From: a virus
Strand: one strand, 5' to 3'
Length of the DNA: 44,963 nt
Virus record (IMG/VR): IMGVR_UViG_3300032224_000208
Location: 1-44,963 of that record
Shown: piece by piece, positions 19,708 through 39,700 of the stretch
How positions within the stretch are numbered: position 1 is the stretch's first letter
Layout: each line of letters opens with the position of its first letter
Notes under the pieces: model-generated
What the model was told of the DNA's origin: nothing
The model's database searches: none
What the model saw: the letters and a program-made list of their open reading frames with translations, nothing else
Made by a program: the position numbers and the translations under genes

Positions 19708-21048
19708 ATGGGATCAGTTAATACAAACGTAAATGGTGTATCTTTTACAATCACCAAACAGCCGGATGGTTCGTTTACCTACTCTACTGAATCTATGCCA
19801 GGTGCTAGTTTTGGCGCCAATAACGAAGCTGTTGCCGGTCATTATGGTGGACCGTTGACCGCTGATAGTGTTAGAAATTCTATACAAAGTTTACAAGATA
19901 ATTTAATTTCCTCAAAACAATCTTACATTGATGATGCTAATCGACAATTAAATTCTGCTACTATTGATCCGGATTATGCGGCCATGTTGAGGAATAATGT
20001 AGCAAAAGCATCAGCAGATATTGAAGAATTTAAATCTCAAGTAGGGGTATTGATAGCAATAGAAGGACAGGTCGGAAGTCTCCAGTCTCAGGCCACTGCT
20101 GCCGATGCCGCAGGCGAAAATCCAGAAGCCAAGACAGGAGCGCAGGCCAATGCGGATGCCGCGCAAGGAGCTACCGGAGCCACAGGTGCTTCGTCGACTC
20201 AAGAAGATCCTACCAATAACAATGCCGGACAAAAGGACTACAGTGATAATGGTAGTAATAATCCCCCAGGAACTGGTTTTGGTGACGACCAAGAAGAATT
20301 CACTAAAGACAGTCTTGGCAATACATTTAAAAATGGTCAATTATATAGAGCGGCAGAAGTAGAAGATTTTCCATCTCAAGAAAATTCTTCAAGAGTTACT
20401 CCTTCGACTATTTCATCTAAAGCGGCTCCTGCTCAAGCCTCTTGGAAAGAAGCGGCGGACCTTAGAGCAATTTTAAGAGTTCCTCCTAAGTATATTACCA
20501 GCTTTACCGATCCGTCTGGACAATTGAGTCAGTTTGGAGGAATTGTATTCCCCTACACACCTCAAATAGGATTTAGTGAGTCGGCAACCTATAACGCAAT
20601 TAATCCTTTACACAGTAACTATACAATCTACACATATAAAAATAGTTCTGTAGGTTCAATATCGTTGAATGCTAAATTCACAGTACAAAATGAAAAAGAT
20701 GGAATAGTATTACTAGGTGTAATACATTTATTACGGGCATTAACTAAAATGAAATTTGGTCCAGATGCTGACGCCGGAGCTCCGCCTCCTGTCTGTAGAC
20801 TAAACGCCTATGGCACATTCATGTTTAAAAACATTCCAGTAACTGTTGCTGACTTCAGGCATGACCTGCCAGAGGGTGTTGATTATATCGCTGTCGGGAG
20901 ATCAAGTTCGACCTTTGGGCCTAATCTGCTTCCTGTATTGAGCACAATTACCTTAACATTGAATCCAACATACAGTCGTTCAGAGATGATGGCGGCAGGA
21001 GTTGACACCTGGCTCAGTGGAGGCTTTGCTGGAAAAGGATATCTATAA
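19708..21048 (+). CDS. Baseplate / tail-tube junction protein (gp48/gp54-like, 446 aa)
   Basis: The N-terminal part (1-130) is helical and Asn/Gln-rich. A Gly/Ala/Thr/Asn-rich linker spans about 130-215. The C-terminal domain (about 260-446) contains FPYTPQIGFSESATYNAINP, a central FTVQNEKDG...LRALTKMKFG helix, and VCRLNAYGTFMFKNIPVTV, then LPVLSTITLTLNPTYSRSEM. This domain resembles tube-like or tube-initiating baseplate proteins, and the neighbour is gp53, so a gp48 or gp54 role at the tube-baseplate junction is likely. I cannot decide between them. AAGGA lies 11 bases before the ATG. The stop overlaps the next start (TAATG). Confidence 0.75.
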   Translation: MGSVNTNVNGVSFTITKQPDGSFTYSTESMPGASFGANNEAVAGHYGGPLTADSVRNSIQSLQDNLISSKQSYIDDANRQLNSATIDPDYAAMLRNNVAKASADIEEFKSQVGVLIAIEGQVGSLQSQATAADAAGENPEAKTGAQANADAAQGATGATGASSTQEDPTNNNAGQKDYSDNGSNNPPGTGFGDDQEEFTKDSLGNTFKNGQLYRAAEVEDFPSQENSSRVTPSTISSKAAPAQASWKEAADLRAILRVPPKYITSFTDPSGQLSQFGGIVFPYTPQIGFSESATYNAINPLHSNYTIYTYKNSSVGSISLNAKFTVQNEKDGIVLLGVIHLLRALTKMKFGPDADAGAPPPVCRLNAYGTFMFKNIPVTVADFRHDLPEGVDYIAVGRSSSTFGPNLLPVLSTITLTLNPTYSRSEMMAAGVDTWLSGGFAGKGYL

Positions 21049-21347
21049 TGACAACATACTCAAAACACAGCCCTTACTCTAAAACTGCTTTAAAAAACGG
21101 AGCATATTTAGATACACTTGTATATAGAGACATTCCTTCTCAGGCGAGTGATGTTCCGTGGGTAGTAACACCTCCGTATATGCATCGTCCAGATCTTTTA
21201 GCTTTTGACCTATACGGTGATGTGGGCTATTGGTGGGTGTTTGCCGTAAGAAATAAAAGCATTCTTAAAGATCCTATATATGACCTTGTTCCAGGAAGAA
21301 CAATTTATATTCCCCAGGCAGAGACAATTCGTTCTGCTCTAGGTTAA
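21048..21347 (+). CDS. gp53: Baseplate wedge protein gp53
   Basis: A 99-residue protein carrying the gp53 core RPDLLAFDLYGDVGYWWVFA (about residues 47-66) and ending in a LysM-like PGRTIYIPQ phrase. In T4, gp53 (196 residues) joins wedges to one another around the hub; here it is about half that size, as in other small gp53-type proteins (PF11246). The ATG overlaps the preceding stop, so translation is coupled. Confidence 0.85.
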   Translation: MTTYSKHSPYSKTALKNGAYLDTLVYRDIPSQASDVPWVVTPPYMHRPDLLAFDLYGDVGYWWVFAVRNKSILKDPIYDLVPGRTIYIPQAETIRSALG

Positions 21348-21350
21348 CCT

Positions 21351-24300
21351 ATGCTAATATCAGATAAACCAACAGCTCAGCCGGGCGCAAAATATAACGT
21401 ATTAAATGACTATAGGTTATATACTCCGTCATTTACTCTTGCCTGTCTAGGTAAGACAGCACTGGCTAATCCTGAAAGTTATAGACAAAGCAGTTTAGAT
21501 TTTGTCATATTAAAATCTGGAGGAAAAAATAAAGGTTTTAATGTAAATGCTTCTCAAGGAGTTGTGTCAGTATCTACATCGTCAAACGAAACCCTAGATG
21601 CCAAACAACTGGTTTCGGGATTCAATGCCGAAAGTCCAGGACGATTTGACATGTTTATTGACAACTTAGAATTTGATTGTCTAATGGCACCTGGAGAAAA
21701 ACAAGGGTCTTCAACAGCACTACAGATAAAATTTGAAGTGTTTGAACCTTATAGTCTTAATGGTTTCATTGAAGCACTCCATGTTAGCGCAGTATCAGCA
21801 GGCTTTAATTCCTATACCGAAGCGGCATATCTATTGAAAGTGGAATTTTGGGGATATCCAGACAAGGGAGATTTCAGCACACCTGAATTGGTACCTAATG
21901 CCAGTAGATACTTTGTTTTTAACTTTACTGGAGTTGATGTTACTGTAACAGAACAGGGGACAAAGTACAGTTGTACAGGAGTACCTAACGGAGATATAGC
22001 ACTAGCTGAACCTGACAAGTTATTAACAGATATAAAAATGACCGGAGCCACTGTGAAAGACGTGTTAACTTCGTTATTTGATAGCATCAACAAGACTTTA
22101 AGTAACAGAGCAGAAGAAGAAAAGGGTCCTGAAAAAAAATCTAACCACGATACATACGAAATTAAATTTCCTGATTTAGCGAAAACAGGAGAGCAATTAG
22201 ATTATACAACTGAAAGTGTGATCGCCAAAGCAAAGATGGCTCCGTTACTGACAACCAATTCTATTTTTAAAATGGTGCCTATTGAAAAAAAAGGCAATGT
22301 CAAACCTGGAGAAAGCAGTCAGGCGCAGGCTGCTGCCACTGATTCTGCTGCCGCCCCGACGCCACAGAGCCAAGGATTAAAATATGAGCCCAATGGCAAT
22401 GTGATTCAATTTGCTCAGAATACTAAAATTAGCGATGCCATAACTGCGGTTATTAGAGACAGTACATATCTTGAAAATATTCTTAAAGATATTAAAGGCA
22501 GTTGCGATGAGCAGGGAAGGATAACTTATTTTCTAATAGGAGTTGAGGTTATTCCAAAGAATCAAAAAGATTCTATATCTCAAGTTGATCTAAACACATA
22601 TCGTTATGTTGTAATTCCCTACAAGGTTCATTTCTCAAGATTTCCTCTACAGAAAGGAGTTGCGTGGAGTCCCGAAGATTTAATGCCTGCTGTGAACAGG
22701 ATTTACAACTATATCTACACAGGAAAAAATGTTGATGTTTTAAATTTCCAACTTAAATTTAATAATCTATTTTTCCAAGCAATACCTCCTAAAGCAGGTA
22801 ATGAAAAAAGTCAAGAGGCCACAACGGCCGCAGGACAAGGCAATACCACACAAGTCAGTGTGCCAAAAGCAGAAAGTTCACAGAGTAAAAAAGAAGTAAA
22901 TCCGTCTTCACCAGTGAGACCGTCCAACGCATCCGATGGAAAGGTTACTGACACACGAGCTAATCGAGCAGGTCCGCCAAGAACTGATCCCTACTATAAA
23001 TTTGCCGAATATGCCCACAATGCTATATTAGAAAGTGTTGACCAATGTACGGCAGATTTAGACATTATAGGCGATCCGTTTTATTTGGTCATGGGAGGTA
23101 TAGGAAATCATAAACCTAAAAAAGCCAGTGAAGGACTGACATTTGATTCGACTGCTGATAATCAAAGCGGTGATGTAGTGATTAGAGTAAATTTTAAAAA
23201 TCCAGATGACATCGATCCTGCCACCGGATTCGCTAGATTTAATCCCGATATTGTTCCCTACAGTGGAATATATAAAGTTATACAGGTCAAGTCTTCTTTT
23301 AAAGACGGAGGATTTAAGCAGACGTTAAGTCTGATAAGACTACCAGGACAGATCACAGACGATTCAGTTACAAAAGAAGAGCCAATTGAACTGGTTAACA
23401 AACCTAAAAAAGGAGCACAGGTAGTAACTGATACTGCTCCGGCAGGAGTTGACAAGGAAGGGGCACGACCTAGTGATTTTAGTATTACTAAATTATTATC
23501 AAGGGGATTGCCCAGTATTGGACTTCCGGGCAATCTAAGTGATTTCTCAGTTTCAGGCGCACTGGCATCTGTCGGATCTATCGGTGCGCTAGGAGTTGCG
23601 GCATTGGGCAAGGTAAGCGGAGCGATAGGAGCCGCAGGCAATCTAGCAGGAATCGCCAGCCAGGTTGGTATTCCTGTTGGTTCTAGTCTAAACGGTCTCA
23701 ACGCCTTGACAAATGGAATTAGGGCAAATGCCATAACACTAAATGGAGTTTCAAATGTTGCCGCAGGAACTGGCGCTCTAATCAGCGGAGCAGGCGCTTC
23801 ATTAGGATCGCTATCGACTGTAGCTAATCCTGCCGCATCAATTGCTAAAACACTTGGAGTTAGCAATGTCGTGAACCTAGCGAGTCCTGCCTCTGCTATA
23901 AATTCTATTGGAGACAAGGCCAAGGCGGCACTAAATGGCTTGCCGAATGATCCTAAAGCCGCACTGGCCGCCGCCGGAGTTAATCCGTCACAGCTGGCAG
24001 GACTATCGCCCGAATTACAAAGTAAGGTTACAGATCAAATCGCACAGGTGACAAAAGATCTGCCTCCGGATGCTGACCTGGCTAAATTAAAAGAAAGCGG
24101 AGTTTCACTAGCAAATATTCCGTCGGATAGAATACAAAACTTACCTGCTACCGCAAAGAAATTAATTGCCGCTGCCCCTGAGTTACCTGATGTTATCAAG
24201 CCAGACGCACTGAATAATTTAAATCGATTAAATGCCGCTCAGTTGGCCAGTGGCAAGTTAGGTGACGCAACGGCATTGGCAGGAAAATTTAGTTCGGCAC

Positions 24301-24527
24301 AGGCATTGGTTAACAGTGCAGCCGGAGGTGCGTTAGGTGGAGTTGAGTCAGCTTTAAATAAAGTTACAAGTATCACAGGTGGCAATCCGTTGGGAGGTAT
24401 AAGCGCAGGATCAATAGCAGACCTAAGTAGTTCTGTTAGTGCCAAGTTTGGAAGTAATGCTTTAAAGACTCCGAGCCCATTGGATACCCTTGTTGCCAAT
24501 GCCAGTAACAAGACATGGTCAATATAA
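21351..24527 (+). CDS. Large baseplate hub-like protein (1058 aa), gp27 candidate with low-complexity tail
   Basis: The first about 680 residues are globular: MFIDNLEFDCLMAPGEKQGS and FEVFEPYSLNGFIEAL (about 100-145), YLLKVEFWGYPD, a potential hub domain with YRYVVIPYKVHFSRFP (about 415-430), and a region of IRVNFKNPDDIDPATGF-like sequence (about 612-628). The last about 350 residues are Ala/Gly/Ser/Leu-rich with many short repeats (for example GLPSIGLPGNLSDFSVSGAL) and look helical or flexible. It lies directly before the gp5-type spike, where T4 has gp27 nearby, so a hub-forming partner of gp5 is my best guess. I found no diagnostic motif. The long tail is unlike T4 gp27 (391 residues). Confidence 0.7.
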   Translation: MLISDKPTAQPGAKYNVLNDYRLYTPSFTLACLGKTALANPESYRQSSLDFVILKSGGKNKGFNVNASQGVVSVSTSSNETLDAKQLVSGFNAESPGRFDMFIDNLEFDCLMAPGEKQGSSTALQIKFEVFEPYSLNGFIEALHVSAVSAGFNSYTEAAYLLKVEFWGYPDKGDFSTPELVPNASRYFVFNFTGVDVTVTEQGTKYSCTGVPNGDIALAEPDKLLTDIKMTGATVKDVLTSLFDSINKTLSNRAEEEKGPEKKSNHDTYEIKFPDLAKTGEQLDYTTESVIAKAKMAPLLTTNSIFKMVPIEKKGNVKPGESSQAQAAATDSAAAPTPQSQGLKYEPNGNVIQFAQNTKISDAITAVIRDSTYLENILKDIKGSCDEQGRITYFLIGVEVIPKNQKDSISQVDLNTYRYVVIPYKVHFSRFPLQKGVAWSPEDLMPAVNRIYNYIYTGKNVDVLNFQLKFNNLFFQAIPPKAGNEKSQEATTAAGQGNTTQVSVPKAESSQSKKEVNPSSPVRPSNASDGKVTDTRANRAGPPRTDPYYKFAEYAHNAILESVDQCTADLDIIGDPFYLVMGGIGNHKPKKASEGLTFDSTADNQSGDVVIRVNFKNPDDIDPATGFARFNPDIVPYSGIYKVIQVKSSFKDGGFKQTLSLIRLPGQITDDSVTKEEPIELVNKPKKGAQVVTDTAPAGVDKEGARPSDFSITKLLSRGLPSIGLPGNLSDFSVSGALASVGSIGALGVAALGKVSGAIGAAGNLAGIASQVGIPVGSSLNGLNALTNGIRANAITLNGVSNVAAGTGALISGAGASLGSLSTVANPAASIAKTLGVSNVVNLASPASAINSIGDKAKAALNGLPNDPKAALAAAGVNPSQLAGLSPELQSKVTDQIAQVTKDLPPDADLAKLKESGVSLANIPSDRIQNLPATAKKLIAAAPELPDVIKPDALNNLNRLNAAQLASGKLGDATALAGKFSSAQALVNSAAGGALGGVESALNKVTSITGGNPLGGISAGSIADLSSSVSAKFGSNALKTPSPLDTLVANASNKTWSI

Positions 24528-24536
24528 AGGAATAAA

Positions 24537-26786
24537 ATGCCAGAGTTAAAACGAACGGGATCGAACGCAACATTACCCAGCGCCGGCCCTTTTTTAGCAA
24601 TTATCACTAACCATTTAGATCCCACTTATATGGGAGCACTTGAAGTTGCTCTCCTGAAAAAAACAGGATCTGATCTACAAGAAACTGCTGAGACACACAT
24701 CGTAAATTATCTCAGCCCATTTGCGGGCAATACGGCAATACGTTACGAAGGCTCTGATTCTTCGAATTTTAATGATGTACAAAAAAGCTATGGTTGGTGG
24801 GCAGTTCCTCCAGATATCGGCGCGACCGTGATGGTTATATTCCTTGACGGAGATCCAAATCAAGGTTATTGGATAGGTTGCGTGTTGGACCGTTATCAAA
24901 ATCATATGGTACCCGGTATTGCCGCTAGTAAGAATGTTGAAATTACCCCCGATCAAGAAAGAAAATATGGAACAAAAAATCTTCCTGTAGGAGAATTTCA
25001 CAAGAAATCTCGTAGCGCCGAAAGTCCAAATGTAAACCAGTATAATAAACCTATCCATCCTTTCGCTGATAGATTATTAGCAAATGGATTGTTGTTAGAC
25101 ACCGTGAGAGGAATAGCCACCAGCAGTTCTCGTAGAGAAATTCCCAGTATGGTATTTGGAATAAGCACCCCTGGCCCTTTAGACCCTAACGGCAAAAAAG
25201 TAACACTACCAAATACTCCTGGTACTCAAATTCCTGTGAGCCGATTAGGCGGCAGTACTTTTGTCATGGACGACGGCGACGAAAGCGGCGAAAGTGAACT
25301 AGTTCGTATTCGTACAAGAACAGGACACCAAATCTTATTACATAACAGTCAAGATTTAATCTACATTGCCAATTCAAAGGGCACTGCTTGGATTGAATTA
25401 ACCGCTGACGGCAAGATTGACATGTATGCTAACGACAGCGTAAGCATTCGTACTGAGGGAGACTTTAATTTTAGAACTGAACGAGATTTCAACGTTGATG
25501 CCCAACGTAATATTAATTTTTATGCTGGCGGTGATTTCCATCAAGATGTTAGAAGAGCTTATTATCTCAATGTAACTGACAAGGCGGCAATTTCTGTAGG
25601 CCAAACCTACGATCTCAGTGTTACTGATAATATTACAATGAGCAGTGCGAACGAAGTTCATCTAACCGCGGCCGCCAACGGATATATTAAAATAGGAGCC
25701 AGTCTACATACTAGAGTAGCAACTGATTCATTCTCATACACTGCCAATAATATTAATATTATCTCGGGAAAGACTACATTTATGGCATCTGGATCAGATA
25801 CTAATATGTCAGTCGGCGGAGATTTAAAATTAACTGCTACAGGATCTAGCAACATTAACTCGTCGCATCACATTGAAACTGCTGGCACTATTGACATGAA
25901 TGGTCCTGCCGCGGCAGCCGCCGACCCTGCTACTGAAGCTGACTCTGCTGATCTAGCTGATCAAGTTAATGCGCTGCAGTTATTTCAATTACCTAATAGA
26001 GATAAAAATCTAGGTTGGGAGGAAGGCAAGTTCTATAAAGCAGAAGATTTGGTCACCATATTAAAACGAGCACCAACATTTGAACCGTGGGAACAGCACG
26101 AAAATATCGAACGAGACAAATTCAGTAAAGATGCGACAGATTTACAAACTCGTAATTCTGTTAATAAGATAGCACAAGGCAAAGATGCCAAGACATTTAA
26201 ATCTTCTGCGGTTCCTTATACAGAACCACCAGCGTCTAAGACTTCTCCTGTTATCAGCCAAGAATCAAAGACAACAACTCAGTACAAAGTTCCACCAGCG
26301 GAGTCTGGATCACCTCCTCCTCTATCTGGAAATGCTGCACAGGATAATATTTCAGCATTCTTGTTTATGATTCGTAAATGCGAAGGCACATCAGGACCTG
26401 ACGGTTATAAAACAATGTTTACAGGCAAGAAGTTTGATGATTTTGCCGACCATCCTCGCAAAGCAATTACAGCTGGAGTTAACGGTAAAGGATTAACATC
26501 AACTGCCGCTGGCGCATATCAGTTTTTATCTAGCACATGGGACGAGTGTAAGAAACAACTTGGTCTTACAGACTTCAGTCCAGCTAACCAAGACAAGGCC
26601 TGTATACTGCTGTTAAAACGTCGAAAAGCACTTGACGATATCAAAGCAGGAAACTTTACAGCGGCTATTAAAAAATGTAATCTAGAGTGGGCCAGCTTGC
26701 CAGGATCTCCTTACAACCAACATCCTAAAGATCTTAACGTAGCGTTAGGTTTTATTAAACAGGGCGGAGGAACCATAGTTGCGTAA
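24537..26786 (+). CDS. gp5: gp5-type baseplate spike with C-terminal lambda R-like lytic transglycosylase (749 aa)
   Basis: Domains in order: an OB-fold domain (about residues 15-125, with VPPDIGATVMVIFLDGDPNQ followed by GYWIGCV), as in T4 gp5; a VgrG-type beta-helix (about 270-450) with short strand repeats such as FNFRTERDFNVDAQRNINFY; a Pro/Ser/Thr linker (about 550-600); and a C-terminal enzyme domain (about 600-749). The enzyme domain has RKCEGT with candidate catalytic Glu616, DHPRKAI, STAAGAYQFLSSTWD, LGLTDFSPANQD and EWASLPGSPYNQ. These match lambda R endolysin, a lytic transglycosylase (GH104), rather than T4 lysozyme (GH24). It would open peptidoglycan at infection. In T4 gp5 the enzyme lies in the middle; here it is terminal. 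AAGGA precedes the ATG. Confidence 0.9.
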   Translation: MPELKRTGSNATLPSAGPFLAIITNHLDPTYMGALEVALLKKTGSDLQETAETHIVNYLSPFAGNTAIRYEGSDSSNFNDVQKSYGWWAVPPDIGATVMVIFLDGDPNQGYWIGCVLDRYQNHMVPGIAASKNVEITPDQERKYGTKNLPVGEFHKKSRSAESPNVNQYNKPIHPFADRLLANGLLLDTVRGIATSSSRREIPSMVFGISTPGPLDPNGKKVTLPNTPGTQIPVSRLGGSTFVMDDGDESGESELVRIRTRTGHQILLHNSQDLIYIANSKGTAWIELTADGKIDMYANDSVSIRTEGDFNFRTERDFNVDAQRNINFYAGGDFHQDVRRAYYLNVTDKAAISVGQTYDLSVTDNITMSSANEVHLTAAANGYIKIGASLHTRVATDSFSYTANNINIISGKTTFMASGSDTNMSVGGDLKLTATGSSNINSSHHIETAGTIDMNGPAAAAADPATEADSADLADQVNALQLFQLPNRDKNLGWEEGKFYKAEDLVTILKRAPTFEPWEQHENIERDKFSKDATDLQTRNSVNKIAQGKDAKTFKSSAVPYTEPPASKTSPVISQESKTTTQYKVPPAESGSPPPLSGNAAQDNISAFLFMIRKCEGTSGPDGYKTMFTGKKFDDFADHPRKAITAGVNGKGLTSTAAGAYQFLSSTWDECKKQLGLTDFSPANQDKACILLLKRRKALDDIKAGNFTAAIKKCNLEWASLPGSPYNQHPKDLNVALGFIKQGGGTIVA

Positions 26787-26800: not shown

Positions 26801-27235
26801 ATGGCATATAAAAATATTCAAATAACTCCTGCGAGCGGCAACTCACAAAACACCGTCAAGTCGGCCCATTTTTATAAAGGGTTCAGTACACTAGACGATA
26901 AATCTGCCAGTATCAAGTTGTTTGACTACGAGCTTATCAAGCAGGATATATTGAATCAATTTAATACTCGCAAAGGCGAACGAGTTATGAATCCCGCGTT
27001 CGGAACTTCAATTTGGGATTTAATTTTTGAACCATTAACTCCTGCCGTTAAAGATAAAATTGCCAATGAAATTAATAGTGTATTAGCAAGCGATCCTCGG
27101 GTAGTACCAACAAATGTTGCTATTACTCAAGGAGATTATGGATTCCGTATTGAGTTAACCTTAAGGTATGTTAACACTGATCAAACAGAAACGATGCAGA
27201 TAACATTTGATAGAAATGTTGGTCTCTCGTTATAA
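26801..27235 (+). CDS. gp25: Baseplate wedge protein gp25
   Basis: A 144-residue member of the gp25/gpW-like family (PF04965), a conserved wedge subunit that binds gp6 and helps nucleate the sheath. The core RKGERVMNPAFGTSIWDLIF (about residues 57-76), followed by EPLTPAVKD, is typical. Length is close to T4 gp25 (132). The start has no nearby ribosome site, and a TAAATA element abuts it. Followed by gp6, as in many T4-like baseplate operons. Confidence 0.95.
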   Translation: MAYKNIQITPASGNSQNTVKSAHFYKGFSTLDDKSASIKLFDYELIKQDILNQFNTRKGERVMNPAFGTSIWDLIFEPLTPAVKDKIANEINSVLASDPRVVPTNVAITQGDYGFRIELTLRYVNTDQTETMQITFDRNVGLSL

Positions 27236-27287: not shown

Positions 27288-30200
27288 ATGATACCATCAA
27301 CAAATACAAAATTACTAGTGGCGGAAGATTGGAAAAAGGTATATCAATCTTTTAAAAACGCTGACTTCAAATCTTATGACTTCGACACCCTACGTCGAAC
27401 TATGATTGGGTATCTTCGTGCCAATTATCCAGAAGACTTTAATGACTATATTGATTCAAGCGAATACATTGCGCTAGTCGATCTTATTGCTTATCTTGGT
27501 CAAAATTTAAGTTTCCGTGTTGACCTTAATGCTCGAGAAAACTTTTTAGAGACAGCAGAGCGTCGAGACAGTATTTTACGTCTTGCTAACTTGATCAATT
27601 ATAATCCCAAGCGTAATGTTGCCGCTTCGGGGTTTTTAAAGATCACAGCAATTAATACCACTGATAACGTATTAGACACTAACGGTATCAATCTAGCAGA
27701 CACTTCAATAACATGGAATGATTCTACCAATGCTGAATGGTACCAGCAATTTTTAAGTATTATAAATTCGACCATGCCGGGTAGTTTTACCTTTGGCCGT
27801 CCTAATGATAGAGCTGTTATTTCTGGCGTCAATACAGAACAGTACAGTATCAACACACAGTTAGCAGATGTTCCAGTATTTGGTTTTAATAAATCAATTG
27901 ACGGTACAAATATGAGTTTTGAAGTAGTAGGTAGTACGTTTTCAGGAAAGACCTACGTTTACGAAGATACTCCCTTACCAGGTAGGAATTTTTCTGTTCT
28001 ATTTAAAAACGATAGTAAAGGCAGCGGTAGCCCAGATACCGGATTCTTTGTTAGTTTTCGTCAAGGCAATCTAAGTGCTAGCGGATTTTCTGTTGATGTT
28101 CCTACAGAAAACGAAATCATTGGAGTCAATGTAACTAATATCAACGATGATGATGTATGGTTATGGCAACTGGATTCAGCAGGAAACTATGCTAACGAAT
28201 GGAAAAAAGTACCAAGCGTTACAGGTAATAATATTATCTATAATAGTTTATCAAATTCTGATAGAAATATCTACGCAGTAATTTCTAGAGAAAGTGATCA
28301 GATTGATCTAGCATTTGCTGACGGCAACTTCGGTAACCTACCTAAAGGTAATTTCCGTTTGTTCTATCGACAAAGCAATGGTTTAAATTATATTATAAAA
28401 CCAGACCAACTGCGTGGTATTCAAATCACTGTGCCGTATCTAAACAAACAAGGTCAGAGTCATCAATTGACATTGACACTGAGTTTACAGTATACAGTTA
28501 GTAACAGTAGTGGTGCTGAGTCAAATGACAGTATCAAATTAAAAGCACCGCAGTCGTACTATGTACAGAATCGTATGATCACTGCCGAGGATTATAATAT
28601 CGCGCCTTTAACAGCAGGCACAGATATTTTAAAAGTTAAAAGTGTTAATAGAATCTCTAGCGGTATATCAAAATATTATGAATTGACAGATGTCAGCGGA
28701 AAGTATTCCAGTACTAATATTTTTGGAACAGACGGACTTCTTTATAAGAATATTTCACAAGATACATTAGAATTTTCTTTCACTAGCCGCAATGAAATCT
28801 ATGCGTTTCTGAAAGGAAGCATGTACACCGTAGTAAATTCAAATTCTCTACGTGACTTCTATTATGACAAATGGCCTAGACCAGATGTCACGTCTTTGGG
28901 AATAGAGTGGACTCAGGTTACTAAAAAAACTGGTCAGACTACAGGGTATTTCCAAGACACTCTTCTAAATCCTACCATACAAACAGTAGGGTATTTTAGT
29001 TCTAACAGTTTAAGTTATGTCACTCCGGGTGCGCTAGTCAAGTTTGTATCTCCTTATAACGCCACCGGACAATCAAAATATCAAAACGAAAAATATTTTT
29101 ATAATGGACAATTGATTAAAAATTCTATACCTGGTACCTCGCAATATGTATGGTCTAAGATTATCAATGTCATCGGTGACGGCGCCAACGGTGGCAAAGG
29201 CAAACTTGCGGACGGGTCTGGTCCTGTAATTTTAAATGGTACTATTCCATCTGATGCTGTACCTACTGAAATTATTCCTGAATTTGTAACCGTATGGGAC
29301 TACGCTTTAGAAACAACTATCGTTAATCTATGCGTTGCCTATAGAAACTTTGGATTGAGTTTTGATAAAACAACACGTCAATGGTTTGTTATCTTAGAAA
29401 CTGATCTAAATCTATATGATCCTTTCAGCCTGCTATATCAAGCAGATACTACAAATCAAAATTTAGATACAAGTTGGTTGGTTGCGTTTGAGTGGACAGG
29501 CAAGAGCTATAAAGTACACTATAGAACAAACCAATATCTATTTGAAAGTGAAAAACAAACTGCTTTCTTTTTTGATAAAACTCAAAAGAACTTTGATTTC
29601 GTAAGTTCTAAAGTTATTAAAGATCAGATTAATGTTTTAAGCGTTAATTCGCAAGCTACCAGTACATCAGCATTGGGTGTAGATTATAATTGGGAAATCG
29701 ACGGGCTGGTTGTAGAACCAGACGGATATACGGATTCTAGAAAAGTTAAGGTAAGTTTCTTTGATGCTAAAGATGACGGTCAAATCGATGATCCTGACAG
29801 TTTCAGTGTAATCGTTGCTCCAGAATCTACAGCAACCAGCGTTACTGGATATAAATCAAATTTTGTTTATTTTGAATTAAGTTCAGACGGATTAAAATAC
29901 AATCCAGTGGATCTTTCGAAGACTACAGTTGAAGCATATCCGAACGAATCGTTGGTAACGAATCCTAGCACATCTACTGTTTATTATTTCTATGATCCAA
30001 CAATTGATGTTCTTAAGACATATTCTGATGTTACCCATACATTCCAATTAGCACCAAGTTACAAAGCCTTTGTGGGGCGTAAGGGACTGAAGTTCCATTA
30101 TCAACATAACAGCGGTGACGATCGTAGATTAGATCCAAGCAAGACTAATTTGATAGACATTTACCTGTTGACAAAAACATATGACACTGCCTATAGGAAC

Positions 30201-30722
30201 TGGTTAGTTTCCGGTGGCACAGAACCTTTGCCGCCAACAAGTTCGAGTCTAGAAGAAAATTATGCTCCGTCTCTTGAAAATATTAAAACAATTAGCGACA
30301 CGTTAATCTATCAACCTATAACCTATAAGCCTTTATTTGGGGCGGCCGCACCGTTGAATTTACAAGCAACTTTTAAAGCTGTGAGAAACAGCAATTACAA
30401 CGTAAGTGATAATGATTTGAAAACAAGAATACTAACTGCTATTGAAAATTTCTTTAACATTGATAATTGGGACTTTGGTCAAACATTTTATTTTTCCGAA
30501 CTAGCCACCTACGTGATGAATTCGTTAACTCCGGACATTACAAATTTTGTTATTGTTCCTAAATCTAACTCAACATTTGGAAGTCTATTTGAAATCAGTT
30601 GTTTAACAAATGAAATATTTGTTAACGCCGCAGGAGTATCAGATATTGAAATTATTGATTCTATCACATCAAGCGCATTAGGATTGAGCAGTCCTATTGT
30701 AACAACGACTACCGGGGTATAA
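27288..30722 (+). CDS. gp6: Baseplate wedge protein gp6 (enlarged, 1144 aa)
   Basis: The N-terminal 110 residues are strongly gp6-like: YLRANYPEDFNDYIDSSEYI (about 43-62), LSFRVDLNARENFLETAERR (about 74-93) and LANLINYNPKRN. The C-terminal part (about 1020-1140) has a gp6-type gpJ-like domain, with NDLKTRILTAIENFFNIDNW and FGQTFYFSELATYVMNS. T4 gp6 has 660 residues, so about 480 extra residues, mainly beta-rich, lie between the two. gp6 dimers form the ring holding wedges together and switch shape at infection. The stop is followed after three bases by the next gene. Confidence 0.93.
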   Translation: MIPSTNTKLLVAEDWKKVYQSFKNADFKSYDFDTLRRTMIGYLRANYPEDFNDYIDSSEYIALVDLIAYLGQNLSFRVDLNARENFLETAERRDSILRLANLINYNPKRNVAASGFLKITAINTTDNVLDTNGINLADTSITWNDSTNAEWYQQFLSIINSTMPGSFTFGRPNDRAVISGVNTEQYSINTQLADVPVFGFNKSIDGTNMSFEVVGSTFSGKTYVYEDTPLPGRNFSVLFKNDSKGSGSPDTGFFVSFRQGNLSASGFSVDVPTENEIIGVNVTNINDDDVWLWQLDSAGNYANEWKKVPSVTGNNIIYNSLSNSDRNIYAVISRESDQIDLAFADGNFGNLPKGNFRLFYRQSNGLNYIIKPDQLRGIQITVPYLNKQGQSHQLTLTLSLQYTVSNSSGAESNDSIKLKAPQSYYVQNRMITAEDYNIAPLTAGTDILKVKSVNRISSGISKYYELTDVSGKYSSTNIFGTDGLLYKNISQDTLEFSFTSRNEIYAFLKGSMYTVVNSNSLRDFYYDKWPRPDVTSLGIEWTQVTKKTGQTTGYFQDTLLNPTIQTVGYFSSNSLSYVTPGALVKFVSPYNATGQSKYQNEKYFYNGQLIKNSIPGTSQYVWSKIINVIGDGANGGKGKLADGSGPVILNGTIPSDAVPTEIIPEFVTVWDYALETTIVNLCVAYRNFGLSFDKTTRQWFVILETDLNLYDPFSLLYQADTTNQNLDTSWLVAFEWTGKSYKVHYRTNQYLFESEKQTAFFFDKTQKNFDFVSSKVIKDQINVLSVNSQATSTSALGVDYNWEIDGLVVEPDGYTDSRKVKVSFFDAKDDGQIDDPDSFSVIVAPESTATSVTGYKSNFVYFELSSDGLKYNPVDLSKTTVEAYPNESLVTNPSTSTVYYFYDPTIDVLKTYSDVTHTFQLAPSYKAFVGRKGLKFHYQHNSGDDRRLDPSKTNLIDIYLLTKTYDTAYRNWLVSGGTEPLPPTSSSLEENYAPSLENIKTISDTLIYQPITYKPLFGAAAPLNLQATFKAVRNSNYNVSDNDLKTRILTAIENFFNIDNWDFGQTFYFSELATYVMNSLTPDITNFVIVPKSNSTFGSLFEISCLTNEIFVNAAGVSDIEIIDSITSSALGLSSPIVTTTTGV

Positions 30723-30725
30723 TAA

Positions 30726-33700
30726 ATGGGAAATAGTATTATTAATGTTGTAGACGCTAACAATCCCGGCTCTAACCGTCGCAGTGTTGACTTGCTTCCT
30801 AATGTCTTTAGAACAGATAAAAATACAAAATTTTTATCAGGAACATTAGATCAACTTATTCAACCAGCCAGTGTTGAGAAGATTAGCGGCTGGGTCGGAA
30901 GTAAGATTACTCCTACATACGATCCTAAAAAAGATTTCTATCTAAAAGAAACTATTCCTTTTAGAAAAAAATATCAATTAGAACCGGCAGTTGTAGTAAA
31001 AGATTCTAATCAAAATATAACAAAGGCCTTTAGTTATGATGATCTAATAAATCAATTGGCATTTGATGGAGCATTAACAAATGATCTAAACAGATTATTT
31101 TCTCCTGAGATTTACAGTTACGATCCTCATATTGAATGGGACAAGTTTGTAAATTTTGATCAGTATTACTGGTTACCTTTAGGTCCTGATGCCATTACTA
31201 TCACCGGCGTGGCTAAAAAGACTGTCAGTACATATACCGTTGTTGATGATACTCTAAAACAATATTTTATTTTAACTCCGGATGGCCTCACAGAAAATCC
31301 CATGCTGACTCTATACAGAGGAGTGACCTATGTTTTCAACGTAAACAGTTCACATAAATTCTGGATCAAAACTCAGCGTACTCAGGGAACTGATTACGCA
31401 TTTAACGATACTGTTACTAATAATGGAACTGACAAAGGTCAGATAATTCTAACAGTCGACGATGATACTCCTAAAAAATTGTACTACGTTGCTGAAGATA
31501 ATACTATTGCTGGTGGAGAAATAATTGTCAAGTCGTTGGTTGAAAACACAATAATCAATGTTGAAAAAGAAATTGTGGGCAAGCAATATTATACTTCAAG
31601 TAAAGGAGTATCGCTGTCCAACGGTATGAAAATTAAATTTGATGGTGAAGTTGTTCCTTCGAGATATTCCGATAAAGAATTTTTTGTAGAAGGAGTAGGT
31701 ACTGCAATTAAATTAATTGATGTTGCTGTTTTACAAACTCCCGAAGTTTATTCTGATTATCTAGATGATGACTTTGATGCCAGTCCATTTGACAAATTTC
31801 CTTTCGACGATTTCCTTACCCTTCCTATATATCCAGAATATATAACAATCAATAGATCAAGCATGGATAGGAATCCATGGAGTCGTTACAATCGTTGGAC
31901 ACACGTTGACGTTATACTTGCTACGGCAGCGGCAAATAATTCTGAAATAGCACTACCGCAAGAATATCGAGCTAAACGTCCAATTATCGAATTTAAACCT
32001 AATTTACAATTGGCAAATTTTGGTCGCCAGGCAGCGATTAATATTCAACACGTTGATACTATAACTACGGACGCCTTTAGTAATGCTGAAGGACAGATTG
32101 GTTATTATGTTGATGAAGTACTAGTCGAAGCTGGAGATCGTGTGGTATTTGCCTCAGATACCGATCCTCTTGTAAGAAACAAGATTTATAAAGTTGAATT
32201 TTTAAATAATGACGGTACATTTAGGATACACTTTGCCGAAGACGAGCATAGTCAGGTTTATGATAAAGACAATGTAGTTGTAACTAAAGGAGTCAACAAC
32301 GCAGGTACTAGTTGGTGGTTTGACGGATCCGGTGAAGGAGTATGGATAGCCGCCCAGCATAAGATATCATTAAACCAAGCACCGTTATTCGATGTATTTG
32401 ACTCTACTGGTGAAAGTTATATTTCTAGTTCAAATTATAATGCCGACTTTGGCGGGACAAAGATTTTTGGATATTCAGTTGGTACTGGATCAGTTGATCC
32501 TGTATTAGGATTTCCTTTAGAGTATAGGAATGTCGCAGATCAAGGATATTATCTATTCTCTAATTATTTCATGACTGATTCATTTACCAATGTAATGGAT
32601 GAAGTTAGTTCAACAATTAATACGAACTCTGGATTTTTAAAGTTGAACGGAGAAGTTGAAAAATTTATCAACGTATGGACAGAGTCTACTCCTTATCCTA
32701 TCCCAGTACTTCAATATCAAGTTATTGAAACTGCTACGTCAAATGTCACATTGAATGCGATTGCTAATCCAGGCTATCAGGATTTTAAATTAGATGTTTT
32801 CTTAAACAATATCAAATTAGTTAATAAAAAAGATTACGCAATACTGGGAAGCAAAGATGTTGTTATTATTAATTTTAATAATCCGTTAGCAGTAAATGAT
32901 AAAGTTCTTTTTAAAATTTATTCCAACGGAAAAATAACAGATACAGGAGTCTATGAAACCAGTATAGGTTATACAAATAATCCATTAAATGGTCCTAACA
33001 GTTATTTCACATTGAGCGAACTAAGTGACCATGCTCGATCAATGGCAGAGAGAGATCCTGATTTTGTTGGCGATTTTATAGGTAAGAATAATATTCGTGA
33101 TCTTCCGGATTTCAACAAATATGGAACAAGATTAATTGTAAATAAAAATCCTTTAAGTTTTTCAAATTATTTTGTCTGCGATCGATCTCATGATGTTGTT
33201 AAAGCCACTCGTAAAATTGGTCTTCAGTATAATCAGTTTAAACTTAATTTGTTAAAGGCATCAGCCGAGCTTAAGAATGTATATTCTAATCCTGCTGATG
33301 CGTTAGATATTGTATTACACAATGTTAATCTCACTAGAGATGCGCAATATCCATTTAGTCAAAGTGACATGTTGGCCTACGGCCCTAATGTGATTTCTAG
33401 GGATTACAAAGTTACTGATCCACGTATTAATCAATATACTTTACCTAACGGACAATTTACACTAGACAAATTAGTACTTCGTTCGGTACTGGTATATCTA
33501 AACAATGAACAACTACTAAACGGAGTTGATTATGTATTTGATCCTTATCTAGCGTTAGTCAATATAAAATCTACATTATCTAAAGGTGATGTAATTACAG
33601 TTAAAGATTATTCAACAACAGACGGTTGTTTTGTTCCGCTAACTCCTACCAAATTGGGATTATTTCCTGCGTTTGAACCTAAGAAATATGTTGATGATAC

Positions 33701-36700
33701 ATATTCTGTAACACAAACTGTAATACAGGGTCACGACGGTAGTATTACTGTTGCCTATGGAGACAGCAGAGACGACATACTTTTAGAATACGAGAAACGT
33801 GTTTATAATAATCTCAAAACTAGATACAATCCAGATTTACTAGATATTAATTCAGTATTGGCAGGTGGTTTCAGAAATAATCCGTTCTCATATTTTGAAA
33901 TTTCTAGGATACTTGAGAAAGAATTTTTAAAATGGGCAGGATTCTACGGGTTTGATTATACAGCCAATAATCTAGTAGACGATAATCCTAAGACATATAA
34001 TTATAGATCGGCACTAAATTATGTAACTGGTCGACCACTGCCCGGACACTGGAGAGGGATATACAAATATTTCTACGACACCGATCGACCTCATACATGT
34101 CCTTGGGAAATGCTGGGATTCACAGTTCAACCCATGTGGTGGGAAAACATCTACGGCCCTGCTCCTTATACCAGAGGAAACCTGCTGTTATGGGAGGATT
34201 TAGCCGCAGGAAAAGTTGCCGATCCAGACAATACATCGATTAATCCTCTTTATATTAGACCTGGACTGTTAGATATGATTCCGGTAGATGATGCTGGTAA
34301 TTTATTAGATCCTGGATTTGCCAACGCGGCATTAAATGTAAATCCTATTAATATTTCTGATAATTGGGAATTTGGAGATCAAGGACCGACAGAAACCGCG
34401 TGGAGACGCAGTTCATTATGGCCATTTACAGTTCAAATTTTATTAGCAGTAACACGACCTGCTGACTATTTCTCTCTTATGTTTGATACAAGCAGGATGA
34501 AAAAGTCATTAGCTGGTCAATATGTTTATACTGATACTGGTACATTTTTAACTCCTAACAATTTATCAATTTACGGTGACAACGGAATGCTGGCTGCTGG
34601 ATATATCGCATTGTTAGTTGAAGCTGGCCGTCAGACAACTAAAAATTATATAAGCAATCTAAAAGAAGAATTAGGTTCAATTAATTTACAACTGTTACAT
34701 AAAGTAGGCGGATTTGTCAGTAAAGACAAATTAGAAATTACTATTGATTCAGTTAGTCCTACTACCGCTAATCCTGGAGTAAATTTAAATAATGAAGATT
34801 ACACGATATTCTTAAATCAAGGTAGTCCAATCGCAGTTCAAAGTATTTCAGGATTGATAATTCAACATACTGATGCTGGTTACGTATTGAAAGGATATGA
34901 TAGAACCTATCCGTATTTTACTATATATCGTCCCGAGTATACACAAACTGATGTAACATTAACTGTTGGAGGAAAGTCTGAGCCCTATGTTGAGTGGAAG
35001 CCATCGTCATTATTAAACGACGGTGCTATTCAAATTGGTGTAGCCGAGACATCACCTTCTGGCAGTTCTTTTTATCAAACTGGTCAAGTAGTATCCTATA
35101 ATAACGGCTGGTATAGAGTTAAGGTATCGCATACTAGCGGATCAACTTTTAACGGTTTGTACTTTACACAGATATCAGGTCCAAATTTAATTGGTGGCGT
35201 TAGTGTAATAAAACCTAGAAAATTTGAAAAACTAGAGACCTTAATTCCCTATGGTACTGTGTTCTCTACAGTACAAGATGTATATGATGTTATCTGCGGA
35301 TACAGTGAATGGCTAACCAGTCAAGGATTTGTATTCGACGAATTCCAACCTGACCTAAGTCAAATACTTAATTGGGAATACGCCGCTAAAGAATTCCTAT
35401 ATTGGTCGAGCCAAGGATGGGCAGTTAATAGTGTAATCACGATTAGTCCATTTGCTAACGGGTTGAAATATCAAAATCCAAATGGAATTGTTGATAATGT
35501 ATTAAATCGGTTTTATGAATACAGCATATTAAAAGCCGACGGAACAGTTCTTCCTTCAAATAAATTAAGTCTACAACGTCTTGATAATATATTTAAAATT
35601 AAAACAGTAAACACACTTGACGGCATTTATTTTGCTCAATTAAATGTTATACAAAAAGAACACAATATTATTTTAAACAACGCAAGTTATTTCAATGATA
35701 TTATCTACGATATCGAATCAGGATATCGTCAACATAGAATTAAACTAAAAGGATTTAGAACAGCAAATTGGTCTGGCAGTTTAAACAGTCCTGGGTTCGT
35801 ATACGACGAAGCTGTTGTTACAGACTGGACAGCCTATACTGATTACAATGTAGGAGACATTACTAGATTTAATGGCAACTACTATAGTGCCGCTACAAAG
35901 ATTAACGGAACAAGTACGTTTGTCTTCAATAATTGGGAAGTTCTTGGTAGCAAGCCAGTTACACAATTATTACCTAATTTCGATTATAAGATCAGTCAGT
36001 TTGAAGATTTTTATAGTTTAGATATTGATAGTTTTGATGCCGGTCAGCAAAAACTTGCGCAACATCTAGTTGGATATAGTCCAAGGACATATCTTGACAA
36101 TATCTTCACGGATCAAATTACACAATATAAATTCTATCAAGGATTTATTAAAGAAAAAGGTACCCGTAATACAATCAATAGATTAGACAAGGCCAGTTTA
36201 GTAAGCCTACAAACTAGTATTGATTTCAATGAAGAATGGGCGTTTAGAATTGGTGACTACGGAAGTTTTACAACTAATCAAAATATTGAAGTATCTCTGG
36301 ATCAACAGGCTTTCAAAGAAAATCCTCAAATTATAAATTTCGTTGATCAAACACCTTATCAACCAAACAACTTTTCAATTTACAAAACTGAAAGTGATTT
36401 ATTGTTTAAGCCTGACAATTATGATAATAATCCTTTTGCCGTTACTATGTTTGAGGATCTTGATCCTGATACAATATTGCCTACAGCAGGCTATGTTCGT
36501 ATAGATGAAGTAGATGCTACGGCATATAGCAAAGCTAGTCTGCTTGATATTGCTAATAATAGGAGTATTAATGAAGGCACTAGCATATGGTTAGGATTTA
36601 GAGAAGACGGTGAGTGGGATGTTTATAGATATACCTTAACAAATATACGTATAACCAACGCGGTATTGACATTTCCTGGGTCATACATGACCCTCACAAC

Positions 36701-39700
36701 AAATTATTCTCATAATTTGAATGTGGGTGATATTATTTCAATAAGTCAGTTTAGCACTGAAATTGATGGGGTATTCCTTGTAAGGTCAGTTGAGGACTAT
36801 AATCAGATTACTGTTGTTACGAGTCTAAATTCTATCAGCAATACTTTCCAGCCTGCTGTAGGACTTCTATATAAATTTGCTTCATCGAGACATGCTAGTC
36901 TTGATGCTCTAGCAAATAATCCCTTATTGGTGAAATATAATGCCGGCGAAAGAGTCTGGATCGATAAATTAGTTCCAGGATCAGACGATCGTTGGTCAGT
37001 ATACCAAAAAACAGATGCTTATACAAAAACTACAGCTACGAATTATGATCCTGGTATAAGTCTAGTTAGTAATCAAACGTTTGGTAGTAAAATTGCGGTC
37101 AATGATATGGCCGGAGTTGTCATGGTCGGATCTCCAACATACCAGTCTACTATCAACTCAGGTGGCCATGTTAGTGTCTACAGGAAATTTGGAACAGATA
37201 ATAAACAATTAACAAAATTATTAAATGTTCAATTATCTAATTCTCAGTTGACATCCAATAAATTAGGAACAAGTATAACATCTTACTACAATGGTAGTGA
37301 TCCGTTACATCCTACTATAGATATTATTGCCGGCGCACCTGGTGGTAGAGGACTGGTGAAAATTGTAAGATTAAATCTTATTAATTTAACCTCCTATGAA
37401 GTTGCTGTAATACTTTCTCCTACTACTGATAAGTCTTTTGGACAAGATGTATACCTAGCACCAAATGGTGTATTGTATATTGGTGCTCCTGGAGAGGGTA
37501 AAGTTTATTATGTAGCTGACTATAATGTATCTACTACTCCTACCGTATTAGCTACTCACGCTGTAGGTTATGGAACAAGTATAAGCGGATCAGGAAATGT
37601 AATTTCTGTAGGTAGCCCTGCTGAAGATTTAGTATATGTATATACTAATACTACTCCTAAAGAAACTATTACCTGTCCGTCTGCGTATGTTGCTGGGTAT
37701 TTTGGTAAGAAAGTGGCAATGGCAAATGATGGTACATTATTTGTTTCTAGTGATACTGGTCAGAGAGTATTTGTCTATTCAACTGGATCGACGTACTCTT
37801 TATTCCAAACAATTACTGCTCCGGATCTGGCTAACGATACTGCGTTCGGAGTTGACATCGGAGTCAACGGTACTAGTTTAGTCATTAGTTCGGCAGGTAC
37901 AGGCATAGGTAGTGTTGCGTTTGATACAAACAAATCTGGTACAAATTTTGACAGTTCTAGCACTACCTTTATCAATAAGATAAATTCTTCTGGTAACGTC
38001 TATGTTTATAATAAACTATCGACGCAATATGTGCTTGGCCAGACTCTCAAAGAAGACCAACCTGCGAATCAATCTGCTTATGGTTATTCAGCAACTATAG
38101 GCAACGGTTATATTATCGTCGGAGCGCCGGGACAAGTTTCATCATCTAGTATCCAGACAGGAAAAATTTATATATTTGATCAAAAGGCAGGTGTTAACCA
38201 ATCTTGGAATCAAATTCATATTGAAGAAGATGTTGTTGATGTAAGATTAATAAATCGAGCCTTTACACTAGATAATGTAAATGATAAAATCGTTGATTAT
38301 TTAGAAATAATTGATCCAGTTAAGGGACGAATTCCTGGCAATGCCGAACAAGAAATCAAGTATAAGACAGTATTTGATCCTGCAGTCTACAGCATCGGAA
38401 TTACAGGAACGGTTAATGATACCAAGACAAATTGGTTAGATGATCATATAGGGGAACTATGGTGGGATCTAAGCAATGCCAAATATGTAAACTATGAACA
38501 AGGAGATTTAGAATTCCGTCGCAATAATTGGAATCGATTATTCCCAGGCTGTTCTATCGATGTCTATGAATGGGTCCGTTCTAAGTATCTACCTAGCCAA
38601 TGGTCTGCCTTGGCAGACACTAACGAAGGACTAGCACAAGGAATCAGCGGCCAGCCTAAATTTGTTGACAATTCCGTTATTAGTATCAAACAGATCTACA
38701 ATGCGACAAGTGGAGGTTTTACTAACGTTTATTACTACTGGGTTAAAAATAAAACAACTGTACCGACTCAGCTTAACAGACGGATCAGTGGATTTGAGGT
38801 AGCAAATTTAATTGCTGACCCCAAGGCACAGGGATTAAAATATGCCAGCATGATTTCTAAAAATGCCTTGATGCTGACAAATATTAAACCTACACTAAAA
38901 GATAATTCAATAAATCTTTCTGTAGAAATTGATTTAATAGACAACGATGTCAAGAAGCATACCGAATGGTTGCTTCTGAGAGAAAATGATCCTACTAGTG
39001 TTTTAGAAATTTCAAGTGCTTTGACACAGAAATTATTAGACAGTTATCTAGGAAGAGATCCTCTAGGTAATCCAGTGCCTGATCCTAATTTGCCTGATAG
39101 ACAAAAATATGGAATCGGATTTAGACCTCGTCAAAGCATGTTCAAAGATAGACTAGGAGCATTACGTACACTCTTAGAATATATAAACTCTATTTTTAAG
39201 AATTTATTAATTAACGAAACAGGTTATAATTTTTCAAGCCTATACGCAAAAGAACAACCAGAAGATTCTGCCGACGGGACATGGGATATAACAGTCTTTG
39301 ATAATATTGCCCGTTCTCAAATTGTTACAAGATATTGGAGACAAGGCCAGATTCAGATCAATCTAAAAAATGGACGGATTGACACCGTTGATATTATAGA
39401 TTCTGGATTTGACTATGGTCGACTGTCTGGAATAGATACTGATGAGTTTGGAAATTACACTACATGGAGAGGGCCAGTGGTCACTTTCTTAGGTGACGGA
39501 GCCGGCGCCGAAATTAGAACTATCATCGATTCTAATGGTAGTATTATTGATACAGTAATAGTCAACAGAGGATCGGGGTATACATATATCACTCCTTCAG
39601 TTCGACCACATGCTGTGATTGTAACTCTTGATGATACTGTGAACAATCGATGGAGCAAATATCTGTGGAGTTATGATTCAAAGACATATACTAGGGTTCA

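Follow-up and report, generated by a model that had tools for sequence, protein, structure and literature searches.

A GH104 domain behind the needle of a gp5-like spike, in a putative exchange slot for cell-wall hydrolases of jumbo phages

Which cell-wall enzyme is carried by the gp5-like spike described here, where on the protein does it stand, and is it a fixed part of that protein or one that can be replaced? The window, meaning the whole stretch of 44,963 nucleotides analysed (IMG/VR record IMGVR_UViG_3300032224_000208), contains at 24537..26786 (+) an intact ORF of 749 aa. Over spike residues 18-467 it matches, with an E of 8.6e-50, the family PHROG 13211, named ‘baseplate hub subunit and tail lysozyme’, and it is syntenic with the spike genes of Pseudomonas phage PA5oct, Agrobacterium phage Atu_ph07 and Sinorhizobium phage Phosso. 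The ORF belongs to a plus-strand baseplate cluster that is preceded by a minus-strand gene for a late sigma factor. The cluster runs from a virion protein to a baseplate wedge subunit that is gp53-like by position (21048..21347, +; PHROG 7145, E 6.4e-24), a virion structural protein of 1058 aa (21351..24527, +; PHROG 11190, E 2.6e-19), the spike, a gp25-like wedge gene (26801..27235, +; PHROG 261, E 4.4e-22), a gp6-like wedge gene (27288..30722, +; PHROG 10646, E 9.7e-285) and finally a frame (30726-44963, +) that stays open for at least 4746 codons and leaves the window at its end, in the position taken by a giant virion protein in PA5oct and Phosso. This gene order matches that of PA5oct and partly those of Atu_ph07 and Phosso, and an arrangement of similar kind is found in RaK2-like phages. 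In the DNA-level comparison the right half of the window (21000-44963) had no match among phage records, and at the protein level all 613 matching phage records are less than 60% identical. The most likely explanation is that the ORF encodes the gp5/VgrG-type central spike of a jumbo phage with a contractile tail.

The N-terminal part of the spike contains an OB-fold domain (about residues 15-118; 24579..24890, +), for which PF04717 scored 23.4 bits, just below its cut-off of 23.8, and for which OB-fold structural matches span residues 14-117. It is followed by the needle beta-helix (about residues 254-456; 25296..25904, +), whose 3′ limit was set by eye at a conserved NGP. The needle region matches PF10106 above the cut-off (32.7 bits) and has structural matches to T4 gp5 and VgrG. 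The predicted structure of the spike, built with 36 sequences, has a mean pLDDT of 68 and a pTM of 0.45; it is confident for the C-terminal domain and weak both in the linker and in places within the OB domain. In the Foldseek search lambda lysozyme ranked first, and the 16 matches that reached E ≤0.001 also included T4 gp5 and VgrG spikes. As the model is a monomer with these modest scores it does not establish the geometry of the needle; a trimeric beta-helix would be in keeping with the PF10106 match and the spike structures matched.

Behind the needle, residues 601-749 (26337..26783, +) make up a domain that, on profile, sequence and structure matches, is of the GH104 (lambda R) type and a predicted lytic transglycosylase. 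PHROG 90 ‘endolysin’ was matched over spike residues 558-739 (E 9.4e-44) and lambda lysozyme (1am7/3d3d) over residues 606-747 (E ~8e-27). Alignment of 3d3d_A with model residues 581-748 gave a Z of 18.6 and an rmsd of 2.4, with 41% identity over 147 aligned residues, and the Foldseek match of lambda lysozyme to the spike had an E of 7e-9. Plasmid-borne entries named ‘glycoside hydrolase family 104 protein’ are 41-46% identical to the domain. Glu616 (codon 26382..26384, +) is aligned with the glutamate of the lambda R EGT motif, which we take to be the catalytic residue of this type; it is present in lambda R, in all ten aligned GH104 tails (window included), in Atu_ph07 and Phosso, and also in locus L117. 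The GH24 family was rejected as the identity of this enzyme, since PF00959 gave no match in the spike at E up to 1 with a Pfam library that does detect PF00959 in RaK2-like spikes and in locus L100. Searches with Pfam, PHROG and structure-sequence methods matched no hydrolase between the OB domain and the needle. The GH104 domain is separated from the needle end by a Ser/Pro/Lys/Thr-rich linker of about 77 residues (residues 524-600; 26106..26336, +), with pLDDT values of 33-56 over most of residues 521-580.

The first-pass annotation had proposed an OB domain and a beta-helix as in T4 gp5, followed by a C-terminal enzyme of the lambda R rather than the T4-lysozyme type, on the tip side of the needle or on a flexible linker. 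The domains, their order and the enzyme type held up: the searches assigned the C-terminal domain to a GH104 hydrolase and not to GH24. A different route of cleavage or activation, which that annotation took to follow from the placement, may exist. A very recent foreign origin of the tail is not supported by GC content, which is 0.419 in the hub and 0.415 in the tail. Related GH104 enzymes of named phages (60 of 553 records listed) almost all serve in lysis as stand-alone proteins, so that the domain need not be one selected for life in the virion.

Between needle and linker lies a short motif, R-x-P-T-F-E-P-W-E-Q-H-E-N (residues 511-523; 26067..26105, +), whose pattern occurs once in the window against 0.00 occurrences expected and whose general form is R-x-P-T-x-E-P-W-x-x-H-E-N. 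In alignment A2 its R, P, T, E, P, W, H and E are invariant in 36/36 rows. A scan of IMG/VR for a similar DNA pattern returned at least 120 stretches, a sample rather than a census, and an ORF with the motif is present at 120/120 of the loci listed, a count in which eight motif positions were set fully or partly by the search pattern itself. Beyond that pattern, R at position -2 is found in 106/107 and I at position -5 in 103/107 sequences of the loci listed, one of the 108 being too short to be counted. Weaker forms of the motif are present in four of twelve named-phage spikes examined, namely those of Atu_ph07 and Phosso and those of PA5oct and SCTP-2, in which the motif stands at the very end, where the protein stops; it is missing from the other eight, RaK2 and CBB included. 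The motif may itself serve as the needle cap, instead of a PAAR tip protein. PF05488 was found in 0/8 records of this virus and its relatives, records that are fragments and in which tips of T4 type may evade the model.

What follows the motif varies widely. The tail set comprised the scan loci (at least 120), 16 loci found by protein similarity and the window, giving 137 ORFs with 108 distinct tails. Of these, 42 are short (16-66 aa) and 64 are long (190-383 aa, including two that the locus end interrupts), and two were cut off before a class could be assigned. The long tails of these listed loci were typed as GH19-like (37), SLT-like (13), GH104 (11) and three singletons of other types, so that the slot holds six enzyme types, or none. 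Profiles were run on representatives (2/37, 3/13, 3/11 with the window, and the three singletons), and the other tails were typed by BLAST clustering. The GH19 representatives matched PF00182 (E 2.3e-7 and 1.5e-8). Two SLT-like representatives matched PF01464 below the cut-off (E 0.0007 and 0.013) and the third did not match; an SLT-like tail matched a solved lytic transglycosidase structure with an E of 1.5e-27. Among the singletons, the tail of L100 is a GH24 domain (PF00959, E 3.2e-15) and that of L044 a cell wall hydrolase (PF07486, E 1.2e-5, just below the cut-off). The tail of L102 fell into no Pfam family and resembled no solved structure (E up to 0.1); it matches the enzyme part of PHROG 27932 (positions 311-491 of 855).

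The L102 tail (L102:3686-4423, -) is about 40% identical to the mid-protein enzyme of gp5 of Sinorhizobium phage phiM9, so that one enzyme family is found in both spike positions. In L117 (L117:3393-4541, +) the GH104 domain is split by a stretch with GDS, GAND and DxxH blocks, perhaps resembling an SGNH/GDSL esterase; PF13472 matched this insert with an E of 0.09, and the model has a pLDDT mostly below 50 there.

The short tails deserve separate mention. A hidden hydrolase was found in none of 10/42 short-tailed spikes searched with Pfam (E up to 0.01) from the N-terminus to a point about 16 residues beyond the motif, nor in the short-tailed spike of L039, which was scanned whole with Pfam. 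The spike of PA5oct, gp350 (L002:8923-10356, +), is annotated as ‘baseplate hub subunit and tail lysozyme’, ends just past the needle-end motif and gave no hydrolase match; this label thus calls for caution, being placed also on spikes in which no lysozyme is detected. Given the 42 short tails and the enzyme-free spikes of PA5oct and SCTP-2, the enzyme may be dispensable or supplied in trans in relatives, which suggests that some hosts, or other enzymes of the virion, make it unnecessary. According to one regular expression, 29/42 of the short, enzyme-free tails end in a peptide like W-x-x-Y-S/T-x-x-x-D-T-F (e.g., L039, L055 and L025), and the enzyme-bearing L044 and L100 retain the DTF peptide ahead of their enzyme. 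This terminal peptide may be where a partner acting in trans docks.

The relation between hubs and tails was followed in an alignment of the hub region (window residues 15-325) of 102 spikes, from which truncated hubs were excluded (among them the GH104 rows L099 and L101). The hub closest to that of the window, L006, is 88.7% identical and bears a GH19 tail; the next, L004, is 81.6% identical and bears a GH104 tail. In the hub tree the window and L006 are joined with branch values of 99/75, L004 joins them at 97/81 and L137 at 100/99. Over the whole tree the tail types require 16 changes, the minimum possible being 8 (with GH19 split in two, 17 versus 9), and the starred branches alone require at least three changes for GH104, three for SLT and four for the short GH19 type. 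The tail-type labels are far more clustered on the tree than shuffled labels, which argues for inheritance with occasional exchange and not for free mixing. Replacement was also observed within a type, the hubs of L012 and L134 being 82% identical with tails of 30%, and those of L117 and L125 being 94% identical with tails of 41%. The enzyme had been called ‘swapped’ in the first-pass annotation, a description that fits near-identical hubs of relatives bearing GH19, SLT-like or no enzyme at this place.

At the DNA level, the window and L006 are 75-84% identical up to residue 300, 42% in the bin of residues 351-400, 70% at 451-500 and 53% at 501-550; the 150-nt bins of residues 551-750 each give 35-51%, and at the stop codon identity returns to 82%, a level kept through gp25 into gp6. 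The lower identity within the needle indicates that the needle body is also variable, and the left border of the slot is less sharp than the right one. The L006 contig has 4305 bases and could be a chimera, though two joins would be required and other pairs show the same pattern. Thirteen pairs, picked after the tree was known, were compared: eight with unlike long tails, four with like tails and one unlike pair with a short tail. In the eight unlike long-tail pairs, two of which oppose a GH104 tail to a far-diverged GH104 tail (L125), tail DNA identity was 41-54% versus 39-43% for shuffled sequence, and 62-90% past the stop codon; in the four like-tail pairs the tails were 71-84% identical. 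The ninth unlike pair, with a short tail of 63 nt, is little informative. At every locus with enough sequence, a gp25-sized gene begins between -50 and +39 nt from the spike stop. On these sequence comparisons, the segment from the needle-end motif to gp25 is an exchange slot, in which recombination in the conserved flanks would swap the hydrolase for another or for none.

It appears highly probable to us that this gp5-like needle bears its GH104 enzyme in cis on a linker and carries it to the periplasm, with the segment between motif and gp25 serving as the exchange slot. The OB domain and beta-helix would build the needle, and sheath contraction would drive it across the outer membrane; the GH104 domain, tethered at the tip by the flexible linker, would be carried into the periplasm (in three copies if the spike is trimeric) and, if active in the virion, would open the peptidoglycan for passage of the tube. 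In T4, the needle is described as crossing the outer membrane and the lysozyme as acting once the beta-helix is released (PMC7677548). That the enzyme travels in with the needle is inferred by analogy with VgrG spikes that carry C-terminal effectors, as presented in PMC10433429. A broader proposal, which we offer tentatively, is that throughout a widespread jumbo-phage lineage the motif is a general plug-in point on a spike acting as fixed carrier, where the whole terminal segment is replaced by hydrolases from unrelated families, perhaps tracking differences in the peptidoglycan of the hosts.

Other accounts of the same protein differ in where, and in what form, the enzyme would act. Before contraction it might be folded back against the hub or the needle side, at the place of the T4 lysozyme, and be freed by contraction: the linker, with its roughly 77 residues, could be long enough for this, activation in T4 takes place when the baseplate releases the beta-helix (PMC7677548), and a VgrG-bound cargo effector of a T6SS is reported to be kept inactive by the spike (PMC10433429). 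Yet unrelated enzyme families share the slot, so that the hub is less likely to offer a specific docking surface, and we regard this arrangement as doubtful. Cleavage of the linker during assembly or entry, after which the enzyme would work as a released soluble protein, is favoured by the length and low model confidence of the linker and recalls T4 gp5, which undergoes cleavage, though at another place; however, linkers vary among tail types and no conserved cleavage site was seen past the needle-end motif, so that we consider this course unlikely.

Two further accounts concern the enzyme itself. The absence of an enzyme from 42/108 tails of the loci listed means that it is not essential in the lineage, as would be expected if the GH104 domain were an inactive or binding-only remnant, but the EGT glutamate is retained in the window and in nine other aligned GH104 tails, and identity to lambda R is 41% in this domain, which makes a remnant improbable. 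Finally, since endolysins are the closest relatives of the domain in named phages (among 60 of 553 records listed), it might also be produced alone from an internal start and act as an endolysin. There is no in-frame ATG, GTG or TTG between residues 505 and 609; a free endolysin from a start within the linker was rejected for this reason, and separate production in any form is scarcely credible. The reading preferred here thus remains that of an enzyme borne in cis on the needle.

If it is correct, the needle carries a tool that can be exchanged and is in this the phage equivalent of effector-fused VgrG spikes. The loci would then form a natural series with a near-constant hub and a varying wall enzyme, making the effect of the enzyme on entry and host choice testable, and they would be a source of virion-borne peptidoglycan hydrolases from several families. 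In the titles and opening abstract lines of the open-licence literature covered, no account was found of spike-tail exchange at this place or of the needle-end motif.

The position of the enzyme has precedents, and C-terminal placement is common in this jumbo-phage lineage. Among the twelve named spikes, GH24 is the terminal domain of seven, preceded in six of them by a weak M23 match; one spike has SLT_3, two have a GH104-like domain plus a protease, and two have no enzyme. The first-pass annotation had presented the enzyme as relocated, a novelty that does not stand: RaK2 gp078 (2013) and CBB_240 (2017) are described, in sections of PMC3622015 and PMC5259590, as spikes with a C-terminal lysozyme domain, and so share with the window a gp5-like hub and a wall enzyme C-terminal to the needle. 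They differ in that their enzyme is GH24 with a weak M23 match ahead, that the needle-end motif was not found in them and that exchange is not described for them in those sections. The C-terminal lysozyme on gp5 is already in print, and the larger result here is the exchange slot behind the needle-end motif. The spikes of Atu_ph07 (gp699) and Phosso have the same domain order, the needle-end motif and a GH104-like domain (E 6e-12 and 0.003, respectively, with a profile of the GH104 tails). They differ in having a trypsin-like protease domain after it, with a Pfam match in Atu_ph07 only, and Atu_ph07 gp699 is only 28% identical to the window spike. In Atu_ph07 gp699 (L001:8905-11502, +) this C-terminal domain is trypsin/HtrA-like (PF13365, E 6e-17, with HtrA-type structures matched), and the Atu_ph07 paper names gp699 a predicted lysozyme. 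The Phosso spike (L003:8914-12048, +) has a very long Gly/Ser-rich linker from needle end to enzyme.

T4 gp5 has the same OB domain and triple beta-helix needle but carries its GH24 lysozyme between them, at residues 174-342 (PMC7677548). In hub gp15 of Anabaena phage A-1(L) (8kea_A; PMC10966104) a lambda-lysozyme-like domain (Z 13.7) is likewise part of a virion hub, yet it is located near the N-terminus of a hub barrel protein and not behind a needle. Specialised (evolved) VgrG proteins, as described in PMC10433429, resemble the window spike in having an effector domain fused C-terminally to a gp5-like spike; unlike them, the window spike is without a fused gp27-like part, its OB domain beginning at about residue 15 of 749, and its role would be phage entry rather than effector export.
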